64,000 nucleotides of DNA from the NCBI RefSeq assembly GCF_004123675.1, contig NZ_CP035417.1:1913501-1977500 (forward strand), read 5' to 3'. The number at the start of each line of letters is the position of its first letter. Within the stretch, counting starts at the first letter, position 1. Both the position numbers and the translations under genes were made by a program. Below are positions 32,135 through 34,830 of the stretch, one piece after another. Source of the DNA: Leisingera sp. NJS204 (lineage in GTDB: Bacteria > Pseudomonadota > Alphaproteobacteria > Rhodobacterales > Rhodobacteraceae). The notes beneath the pieces were generated by a model. That model was not told the origin of the DNA. It saw only the letters and a program-made list of their open reading frames with translations, and searched no databases.

Positions 32135-32725
32135 TCAATCATTCATGTGTTTGTCGACCATCCGCTGCACCATCGGCGCAAAATGCCAGTAGTCGGGCGT
32201 TTCCATGTCCGCGCGTTTGCCAGCCTCGTCCAGGTAGCGCACGGCGATGATCTGCTTGAGGTTTGGGTTCTTCTCCATCTCGGTCACTTCTTCCGCATTC
32301 ATCGGCCCGCCTTGCAGGTTCAGCGAATGCACGGAAGCCTCTGATAAACGGTTGAAATACTCGGGCTTGGTGGCGCAGAGATAGCGTTTGGCCGCCACAT
32401 GGTACCGCACGCAGTCGGTGATCACAGAAGGGAAGAACTGTTCCAGCACCTCGGCGCCGGCCTCCTCGTGAAACCGGTCTTCGGTGTCATCCATGGAGAA
32501 AGTGCCGAACTCGCTGGTGAAATGGCCAATATCGTGGAGAAGCGCCCCTACGATGATCTCTTCCGGCTGGTTGTTCGCTTCGGCGATGGTGGCGCCTTGC
32601 AGCATATGTTCGGTCATGGTGACCGGCTCGCCCAGGTATTCTTCGTCGCCGCGGCGGTCAAAGATATCGCCGATGAAGGCGACAATGTTGTCCTGGGTCA
32701 GTGTGCTGAAATCCGGCTTGTTCAT
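32135..32725 (-). CDS. tmpB: HD-domain mixed-valent diiron oxygenase, TmpB-like
   Basis: The 196-residue protein is of the PhnZ type. The HD metal ligands read His40 (TEHMLQ), His64-Asp65 (LLHDIGH), His86, His109 and Asp166. The Tyr30-x-x-Glu33 pair just before (EYLGEPV) is the marker that separates the PhnZ-type oxygenases from plain HD phosphatases. TmpB of Leisingera caerulea cleaves (R)-1-hydroxy-2-(trimethylammonio)ethylphosphonate to glycine betaine and phosphate with O2. Its start is three bases after the stop of the neighbouring dioxygenase gene, so the two are one operon. Assignment rests on these motifs and on the partner gene. Confidence 0.88.
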   Translation of the reverse strand: MNKPDFSTLTQDNIVAFIGDIFDRRGDEEYLGEPVTMTEHMLQGATIAEANNQPEEIIVGALLHDIGHFTSEFGTFSMDDTEDRFHEEAGAEVLEQFFPSVITDCVRYHVAAKRYLCATKPEYFNRLSEASVHSLNLQGGPMNAEEVTEMEKNPNLKQIIAVRYLDEAGKRADMETPDYWHFAPMVQRMVDKHMND

Positions 32726-32728
32726 TGT

Positions 32729-33862
32729 TCAGCCCTCCAGCTGGGTATTCAGAACGTTCAGGGTCGACAGCAGCCCGTCCTTGTCAGCGTAGCAGCCCTG
32801 CAGCCAGCGCGAACCTGAACCGGAATACCCCAGACGCGCATGCATCACTCGGGTGTTGTCGACGATGAAGCTCTCGCCCGGTTCCAGTTTGAAAGAAACG
32901 CCCATGTCCGGATCGTCGATAAATTCGCCCAGACGGCGGTATGCGGCGTAATAGGCCTCCATCTTTTCAAAGGGCACGTCCACAAAAGGCGCTGAAGACC
33001 TGTTGTTGAAGCGCATGCCGATCATCTCGCCATCAGGCGCGAGTTCAATCATCGGGCGGCGCGAGCGCAGATGCACGCCGTCGGAGCCCTTGTATTCGAA
33101 CCGGGCCGGGTAGCCGGCAAGCAGCGCAAAACCTTCCGGGTCCTCTTCGCGCAGCCGTTCCGCCGCGCGGAACCCGTCCACCACGATGCTGTCGCCGCCT
33201 TCTGCCGAATTTTCCAGGCAATACAGGATCTGCAAGCTTGGCACCGGATCGCGGTAGGGGTTATCAGTATGCGCCTGCAGCCCCAGGCCGGTATAAGCGA
33301 GGTTGGTCGGGTTCACCTCGGTCCGCACTTCGAAGAAGCGTCCGTAGTTGGTTTCACGCACAAACCCGAACATCTCCGCACAGTCGATCAGAGCGCCTTC
33401 CTTGACGGGGCCGTTCACCAGCTTGGCAAAGCCGAGACGGGCAATCGCATCCAGCCAGTCGCGCTTGACCATGGGGTCGGTCTGCACGTCGTTCCAGTCA
33501 AAGGCGGGCGCCGGTTGGCTGCTGTTCCAGGTCTGAATGTCTGGTGCAGTGCGGCCAAATTTAGTATCCTTGTCAATGTCATAGGCGTGTGATTTCAACC
33601 ATTCCTCAGGGAAGGTCACAGTCTTGCCGTCCGGCGCAAAGGTCACTGTCAGGGCACCGTCTTCCACCAATGCGGTGCTGATCCTGGTGTCCGCGGGTAT
33701 ATCGCCGATGGTGATCAGGCGCTGGCCGTTACCTGGTGCGCGGGTTTCTGGATCCAGCGCATTGTCGCGCAGCCAGATCGCGTGAAAACGGCACTGTTGG
33801 CCGTCTTCAAAAGTCAAAGTCAGAAAACTGCCGGATGTGTCAGCGGTTACGGAACGGGGCAT
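32729..33862 (-). CDS. tmpA: Fe(II)/2-oxoglutarate dioxygenase, TmpA-like
   Basis: The 377-residue protein has gamma-butyrobetaine hydroxylase architecture: an N-terminal DUF971-like domain (residues 1-100, [16 protein letters not shown]) and a TauD-fold domain with the metal triad His198, Asp200 ([10 protein letters not shown]) and His341 ([13 protein letters not shown]). The N-terminal zinc cysteines of animal butyrobetaine hydroxylases are absent. TmpA of Leisingera caerulea hydroxylates 2-(trimethylammonio)ethylphosphonate. The adjoining tmpB and divergent LysR gene favour this over a carnitine-pathway role, although the family is often labelled butyrobetaine dioxygenase. Confidence 0.87.
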
Positions 33863-33960
33863 TGGATCTCTCCGGTTGGCTTGGTTCTCCCTTGCGCTAA
33901 TACCGAGGCTGAGCCATCAAGAGAACGACGGAAATCGGGGTTTGAGGGTTAGGTTTTCTA

Positions 33961-34830
33961 ATGCCCAGGAAAGCGACCAAACAGGGCTTGCCGCCGCTTG
34001 ATTGGCTGAAGGTGTTTGAAGCAGCTGGCCGGCTTGGCAGTTTCACAGCTGCGGCGGAGGAATTCGGCGCCACACAGGCCGCGGTCAGCCAGCGGATCCG
34101 GAACCTGGAATCCTGGCTGGGGCGGCAGTTGTTTATTCGCTCGGCACGCGGTGTGACGCTGACTGTGGATGGCGAAAGTTACCTGCCGCTGGTTCATGAT
34201 ACTCTGCTCGCATTAGAACAGGGCACCGATAATCTATTCGGTCAAAGCGCCAGGGAGCTGAGGGTTGCGGCCTTGCCATCACATCTGGAGATGCTTTTGC
34301 TGCCGCGGCTGGGTCTGTTTTCAAAGACCTACCCGGACTTGCGCCTGGTTACGGAAACCGTTCCAAAACGACTTGAGTTCGAGGCGGCCGACGGGGCTTT
34401 GCACATCCGCTACGGACGCGGCGGCTGGCAGGGGCGCGACGGGGTCTTGCTGGCAAATGAAGTGCTGCAACCAATGACAGCACCTGGAAAAGCGGCCGGG
34501 TGGCGGCAGCTTCCGGTCATAGAATTGCGTGGAGAACGGCCGGGCTGGGCGGAGTGGGCCAGAGTGACGGGTGAATCGGAGCCTGATGCCGGTCCTGTGT
34601 CTGTAGACTCCATGGCGCATGCCTTGCGGACTGCCCGGTTGGGGATGGGTGTTGTTTTGGGATCCAGGGCTTTGGCTGCAAATCTCTTGCAAACAGGGCA
34701 ATTGGAATGCGCGCCTGCGCCGGAACTGGCTATAATTGAAGGTTATTGGCTGACTTGGCCGCCGAGCCTTGGCAAATCGCCACGGCAAAGAGCCCTGCTG
34801 GAGGCATTTAGCCAGGCACTCCGGCAGTAG
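33961..34830 (+). CDS. LysR-family regulator divergent from tmpA
   Basis: The 289-residue protein has an N-terminal winged helix (PPLDWLKVFEAAGRLGSFTAAAEEFGATQAAVSQRIRNLESWLG) and a substrate-binding domain with the GcvA/AmpR subgroup layout (PLDWLKVFEAAGR opening). It is transcribed away from tmpA across 98 bases, the arrangement expected for a LysR regulator acting on its neighbour, so it probably senses the phosphonate. The coupling is inferred from position. No clear T-N11-A operator stands out in the short gap. Confidence 0.88.
   Translation: MPRKATKQGLPPLDWLKVFEAAGRLGSFTAAAEEFGATQAAVSQRIRNLESWLGRQLFIRSARGVTLTVDGESYLPLVHDTLLALEQGTDNLFGQSARELRVAALPSHLEMLLLPRLGLFSKTYPDLRLVTETVPKRLEFEAADGALHIRYGRGGWQGRDGVLLANEVLQPMTAPGKAAGWRQLPVIELRGERPGWAEWARVTGESEPDAGPVSVDSMAHALRTARLGMGVVLGSRALAANLLQTGQLECAPAPELAIIEGYWLTWPPSLGKSPRQRALLEAFSQALRQ

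Follow-up and report, generated by a model that had tools for sequence, protein, structure and literature searches.

A tmpAB-type organophosphonate locus in Leisingera sp. NJS204, and a candidate third operon gene in its relatives

Introduction

TmpA and TmpB of Leisingera caerulea, the structures of which have been solved (6npb and 6npa, respectively), are encoded by an adjacent pair of genes. Passages of the review PMC10574752 describe TmpAB as a two-gene operon, and the pair of reactions as one that yields phosphate and glycine betaine. PhnY*/PhnZ, which acts on 2-aminoethylphosphonate, and the Gimesia pair, which acts on methylphosphonate, resemble TmpAB in their chemistry: hydroxylation is followed by oxidative carbon–phosphorus (C–P) cleavage, and the cleaving enzyme is a diiron HD oxygenase with a Tyr-x-x-Glu (YxxE) loop. 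Here we describe a pair of this kind, facing a divergent LysR gene, in Leisingera sp. NJS204. The window—by which we mean the whole stretch of 64,000 nucleotides analysed, positions 1,913,501 to 1,977,500 of contig NZ_CP035417.1—almost certainly carries a tmpAB operon, predicted from its sequence to encode a pathway to glycine betaine and phosphate. With high confidence, we regard it as an ordinary new representative of a known pathway. More promising, and of larger value, is a third gene, here called open reading frame 3 (ORF3), that follows tmpB in many relatives and appears to have been lost from the lineage of the window.

The two oxygenases

The dioxygenase gene, tmpA (32729..33862, minus strand), encodes a protein of 377 amino acids, and the HD-domain gene downstream, tmpB (32135..32725, minus strand), one of 196. 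The gap between the two is 3 bases long (32726-32728), and a LysR-type regulator gene (33961..34830, plus strand; 289 amino acids; domains PF00126 and PF03466) diverges from tmpA. An initial annotation, made from the letters of the window, had described just this arrangement.

When compared with the sequences in the PDB, the dioxygenase matches TmpA (6npb) with an E-value of 1.7e-238 and 794 bits. The two proteins are identical at 336 of 377 residues (~89%), and none of the 41 differences falls on a metal-ligand residue; H198-T-D200 and H341 occur in the dioxygenase as they do in 6npb, H-x-D…H being the Fe(II) facial triad of this superfamily. The TmpA equivalog model, NF049936, scores it at 600.6 bits, against a cut-off of 400. 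From this resemblance, the tmpA product is predicted to be an Fe(II)/2-oxoglutarate dioxygenase that hydroxylates 2-(trimethylammonio)ethylphosphonate.

The runners-up in the same comparison bring two other readings with them. Gamma-butyrobetaine dioxygenase (4bg1; E 1.4e-51, 179 bits) likewise belongs to the 2-oxoglutarate family and takes a trimethylammonium substrate, and the dioxygenase passes the cut-off of the butyrobetaine dioxygenase model, TIGR02409, as well (433.2 versus 414.75 bits); it is the one TIGR02409 match in this genome. That the gene might encode a carnitine-pathway butyrobetaine hydroxylase, and its neighbor a plain phosphatase, is nevertheless very improbable. The protein is far closer to TmpA than to the characterized butyrobetaine dioxygenase, by 794 bits to 179 as well as by its score with the TmpA model; it lacks the Cys-rich N-terminal segment (CPCSDC) of 4bg1; and the HD protein possesses both the YxxE loop and the diiron set. 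Because the TIGR02409 cut-off is passed, automatic mislabelling of the tmpA product is still possible. To that extent the warning in the initial annotation that both genes are usually mislabelled still applies, but it is partly dated, for NCBIfam equivalog models now exist for both. The second runner-up is DfmD (9j0j; E 2e-34, 122 bits), an enzyme of the dehydrofosmidomycin pathway whose substrate, according to the abstract of PMC9296572, is 2-(trimethylamino)ethylphosphonate—the same compound. A biosynthetic, DfmD-like role for our dioxygenase is scarcely credible, given 122 bits versus 794 for TmpA, and a gene that is paired with one for a C–P cleaving oxygenase.

The HD protein matches TmpB (6npa) with an E-value of 1.4e-119 and 400 bits; PhnZ comes next, with ~3e-29 and 105 bits. 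Of 195 residues 176 are identical to those of 6npa (~90%), and the 19 differences spare all of the metal and YxxE residues. Y30, E33, H40, H64, D65, H86, H109 and D166 are each the same in both proteins, so that the Tyr30-x-x-Glu33 loop and full HD metal set, by which the initial annotation had recognized a PhnZ-type HD oxygenase, are present to the last residue. Sections of PMC8177086 describe the roles of this loop, and of the H…HD…H…H…D diiron set, in TmpB-type oxygenases. The TmpB equivalog model, NF049941, gives 361.6 bits against a cut-off of 300, and the genome as a whole has a single full-length TmpB-like match besides one of 38 positions (32 bits). The tmpB product is predicted to be a diiron HD-domain oxygenase that cleaves the C–P bond of (R)-1-hydroxy-2-(trimethylammonio)ethylphosphonate, giving glycine betaine and phosphate.

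Could the pair work instead as PhnY*/PhnZ does on 2-aminoethylphosphonate, or as the Gimesia pair does on methylphosphonate? The chemistry is shared, and the match to PhnZ is the second best that the HD protein has. The substrates expected are different, however, and the HD protein falls below the cut-offs of both TIGR03276 (196 bits versus 214.6) and NF052439 (142.7 versus 300); we consider either possibility most unlikely. The proposal from which this work began, that of a tmpAB-type organophosphonate locus, has held up well. Alignment with characterized TmpA, TmpB and PhnZ, the check that accompanied it, reveals full-length identity of ~90% to both solved enzymes and scores above both equivalog cut-offs; and by bit score the two proteins lie nearer to TmpA and TmpB than to carnitine-pathway dioxygenases and plain HD phosphatases, the grouping that had been named as its contrary. 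They are close to the L. caerulea enzymes, with the same catalytic residues, but they are not the same sequences.

Conservation and regulation

Scanning genome contigs yielded 141 confirmed relatives; the counts of loci given here rest on the best 80 of these 141. Every one of the 80 has tmpA and tmpB side by side and in the same orientation, with tmpA the upstream gene. A LysR match diverges from tmpA in 74; none was found in L019, L040, L058, L066, L069 and L078, the contig ending inside tmpA in L040 and L069. Among the 74, 49 are 56–97% identical to the LysR protein of the window and 25 are 36–44% identical.

Two side observations belong here. Locus L014 comes from a record titled Nocardioides marinus DP1N28-1, and its identity to the window is 87% for tmpB, 78% for tmpA, 71% for LysR and 91% for sufS; the record is probably mislabelled or contaminated. 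In 4 of the 80 loci, a related gene—for a type I phosphodiesterase, judged by eye—is situated 3′ of tmpB or ORF3 (L019:7269-8096, L028:6604-7428, L043:6610-7440 and L069:1724-2554). The one in L019 has no NCBIfam match at E 1e-20.

The LysR protein of the window is nearest to the GcvA and choline-sulfate regulator models, under the cut-offs of both. GcvA is the best of the NCBIfam models, with 162.7 bits against a cut-off of 288, and no equivalog applies. TIGR03339, the phn_lysR model, gives 64 bits against a cut-off of 341.1, and on these scores the protein is not a phn_lysR. The regulatory region that the LysR gene shares with tmpA (33863..33960, no strand) is 98 bp long, and the spacing is 98–99 bp in the window and in loci L001–L013. 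An inverted repeat, TTAG-N5-CTAA, is identical in all 14 of these intergenic regions, which come from close relatives; shuffling leads one to expect some such inverted repeat in 2.4 of the 14. In the window this repeat reads TTAGGTTTTCTAA (33949..33961, no strand) and overlaps the LysR start codon. A second repeat, ATTA-N7-TAAT, occurs in the intergenic region of 28 of the 61 other aligned loci. LysR boxes have the form T-N11-A. Both repeats have it too, and can be put forward as putative LysR boxes; the loci are related, and the resemblance is suggestive only.

Is the operon intact?

Several points weigh against the locus being a tmpAB operon in working order, in addition to the butyrobetaine dioxygenase score discussed above. 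The 25 LysR matches of 36–44% identity may, to go by their distance, be different regulators. The residue comparison covers the metal and YxxE sites of TmpA and TmpB, a limit that we place on the same side of the balance. And the absence of ORF3 could signal altered or decaying function, tmpA and tmpB being intact nonetheless.

The query that detects ORF3 in 17 of the 295 genomes of a family-wide sample, and so evidently works, finds no ORF3 in the window or in the genome to which the window belongs (G000). Among the nearest 13 loci (L001–L013), ORF3 is intact in 11, is present as two fragments in L005, and is missing from L013. The segment of the window directly 3′ of tmpB (32108..32134, minus strand), where ORF3 lies in those 11 loci, was compared with L003, L005 and L013; by eye, a candidate vestige of the ORF3 start codon can be discerned near 32123. 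The window lineage appears to have lost ORF3. These losses, and the fragments in L005, would also fit a genuine TmpAB pair in decay, its third gene gone and its pathway out of use. We think this unlikely: tmpA, tmpB and the LysR gene are all full-length, and the catalytic residues that were checked are kept. Since the window and 39 of the 80 loci have no intact ORF3 beside tmpB, and the genome of the window has none anywhere, ORF3 cannot be strictly needed for TmpAB. Decay of ORF3, by fragmentation or in-frame stops, can be seen at L005:6594-6804, L123, L127 and L134, in genomes that keep a tmpB over cut-off; G036, G100 and one of the two copies in G089 have in-frame stops.

As a tmpAB operon, the locus would function in the following way, if the chemistry of the orthologues applies. 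TmpA would use Fe(II), O2 and 2-oxoglutarate to hydroxylate C1 of 2-(trimethylammonio)ethylphosphonate. The C–P bond of the product would then be cleaved by TmpB, the mixed-valent diiron centre of which is gated by Tyr30/Glu33, and glycine betaine and phosphate would be released. The divergent LysR protein would most likely turn the operon on in the presence of substrate or product, the presumed inducer, by way of a presumed operator. Substrate would enter through phnCDE or another transporter encoded elsewhere in the genome, and the pathway, if it works in this genome, would do so without ORF3.

Genomic surroundings and transport

Domain scans indicate that the flanking genes to which names can be given are housekeeping genes. 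One flank encodes two SufB/D-type proteins, an ATP-binding cassette (ABC) ATPase (SufC by context) and a class V aminotransferase (SufS by context); the other encodes MepK, an L,D-transpeptidase, a hexapeptide acyltransferase (LpxD-like) and a ketoacyl synthase. An open reading frame of 380 amino acids beyond the LysR gene (35014-36156) has no Pfam or NCBIfam match. The initial annotation had remarked that no phosphonate transporter is nearby, and indeed, the ABC ATPase of the SUF cluster apart, no transporter is found among the flanking genes scanned, from 25.5 to 41.7 kb of the window. Nor is one recognized among the clusters of open reading frames that occur in at least 3 of the 80 loci, most of these reading frames being without a library scan.

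That uptake must occur by other loci, as the initial annotation went on to say, is consistent with the presence of a phnC-phnD-phnE-phnE set, each gene over cut-off, ~1.06 Mb from tmpAB on the same contig of this 5.04 Mb, 8-contig genome; its connection with this particular substrate goes only as far as making phnCDE a candidate importer. One C–P lyase gene, phnJ, is present in the genome, with that of a PhnF regulator nearby. The models for the 2-aminoethylphosphonate binding protein (TIGR03261) and for choline binding (TIGR03414) find nothing in the genome over cut-off, their best scores being 45.5 and 51.7 bits.

A third gene in the relatives

Intact ORF3, of ~221 codons, lies 3′ of tmpB in 41 of the 80 loci, and in all 41 the stop of tmpB and the start of ORF3 share an identical overlap of 4 bp (L002:6594-7259 is an example). 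Overlaps of this kind are a usual sign of translational coupling. Residues 121–188 resemble ureidoglycolate lyase (PF04115, E 3e-12, over the domain cut-off), and the HPxGxQxF and WH motifs are common to ORF3 and to the solved lyases of the AllA family, 2bdr and 1xsq. ORF3 differs from AllA in its ~120 N-terminal residues, which have no match, and in the phosphonate genes that surround it in part of the genomes. The AllA equivalog and subfamily models have cut-offs of 160 to 315 bits, and ORF3 falls well short of these, with best scores of 44.4 (L002) and 45.9 (L069); for the AllA equivalog, the figures are 44 versus 230 bits. Among 29 divergent ORF3 sequences, the query included, 49 positions are at least 95% conserved, among them the block NYHPDGGQ (123–130). 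A structure model made from 12 close homologues had a mean predicted local distance difference test (pLDDT) score of 35.5, and was not used.

The distribution of ORF3 is tied to that of the oxygenases. The family sample (295 genomes, nearly one per genus) contains tmpB in 41 genomes at E 1e-10 (in 38 the match passes the cut-off) and ORF3 in 17. With the exception of G165, every ORF3 genome also has tmpB, in each case over cut-off: 16 genomes, where 2.4 are expected (hypergeometric p 1.5e-14; this and the p-values that follow treat genomes as independent, and shared ancestry makes them too small). ORF3 adjoins tmpB in 7 of these 16 (one copy is broken) and lies elsewhere in 9, so that inheritance of a single operon does not by itself account for the link. 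In a class-wide sample of 385 genomes, a TmpB/PhnZ-type oxygenase is present in 20 of the 22 with ORF3 (G460 and G518 are the exceptions) versus 89 overall (expected 5.1, p 4.8e-12); the NF049941 search at E 1e-10 takes in PhnZ-like proteins here, and most of the matches are PhnZ-like, not TmpB over cut-off. Counting TmpB over cut-off alone gives 6 of 22, versus 15 of 385 overall (p 6e-5).

A pure lifestyle effect was considered as the source of this co-occurrence, and rejected. AllA, the control, is itself enriched for HD oxygenases (41 of 89 genomes versus 20.6 expected), with an odds ratio of 4.4; for ORF3 the odds ratio is 43, and the association is still significant among AllA-positive and AllA-negative genomes alike. 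Lifestyle explains part of the signal, not all of it.

The context of ORF3 away from tmpB was read in 12 stretches from the family sample (the one from G100 has tmpB beside ORF3), together with 20 stretches from the class sample, one from each of its 22 ORF3 genomes apart from G598 and G625; ORF3 could be placed in all 32. In 8 of these (L124, L126, L150, L151, L154, L155, L159 and L160), a phn_lysR-like LysR gene diverges from ORF3, and for the 7 that were scanned (all but L159) TIGR03339 is the best family, with 213–271 bits, below the cut-off of 341. L164, from a 1.6 Mb genome of the same class, contains a phosphonate cluster (L164:5572-11387) in which ORF3 begins 7 bp after the PhnW gene, accompanied by genes for a PhnZ-like HD oxygenase (TIGR03276, 202 bits, under the 214.6 cut-off), a metallophosphoesterase (by eye; the SpdA model is below cut-off) and PhnY (TIGR03250, 785 bits). 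In L127, a broken ORF3 is within ~6 kb of genes for PbfA (NF049939, 664 bits), PhnW, a phn_lysR-like regulator (290 bits) and a membrane protein like TIGR03340 (156 bits), the last two below cut-off. The genome concerned, G089, has PbfA, PhnW and TmpB over cut-off together; parts of PMC8154272, in contrast, say that genomes with PbfA lacked PhnZ. In L159, a choline-sulfatase gene (L159:7636-9138; TIGR03417, 627 bits) stands beside ORF3 on the opposite strand, and relatives of it, by clustering, occupy the same place in L151 and L154.

Other contexts count against a phosphonate role for ORF3. In L128, L131 and L132 it lies, by eye, between purL and grxD, and in many others, including L129, L130, L133, L148, L157 and L161, inspection by eye without a library scan reveals no phosphonate gene beside it. 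A stretch from a Paraburkholderia plasmid lacks gene annotation, and the context of ORF3 there could not be read.

According to parts of PMC8154272, the substrate of PhnZ and PbfA is (R)-1-hydroxy-2-aminoethylphosphonate, and according to parts of PMC8177086 that of TmpB is the trimethylated form. The ORF3 product, which resembles ureidoglycolate lyase and whose gene occurs together with those of all three, might turn over a hydroxyphosphonate or else a by-product of the carbinolamine type. We consider it fairly probable that tmpAB was ancestrally a three-gene operon in Leisingera/Ruegeria; that ORF3 is an unrecognized enzyme of aminophosphonate catabolism, present alongside TmpB/PhnZ-type oxygenases across Alphaproteobacteria and probably acting on 1-hydroxy-2-aminoethylphosphonate or a by-product; and that it was lost from the genome of the window. 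No ORF3-like gene in phosphonate catabolism was found in the literature searched on TmpA/TmpB/PhnZ, PbfA/PhnW, AllA and their substrates, a body that did not include the original description of TmpAB and in which the gene might go by another name; the portions of PMC12366243, PMC10590968 and PMC8154272 consulted make no mention of a cupin/ureidoglycolate gene of this kind.

Outlook

The sequence of this locus makes it very probable that a choline-like phosphonate serves the bacterium as a source of both phosphate and glycine betaine, a use that forms a minor part of the phosphorus cycle in the sea. ORF3 is a well-conserved enzyme candidate that would be misnamed from its domain alone. Co-occurrence ties it to the C–P cleaving oxygenases, and in some of the genomes its position also links it with other phosphonate genes. 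It can be tested with the substrates already in use for TmpAB, PhnZ, PbfA and PbfF.

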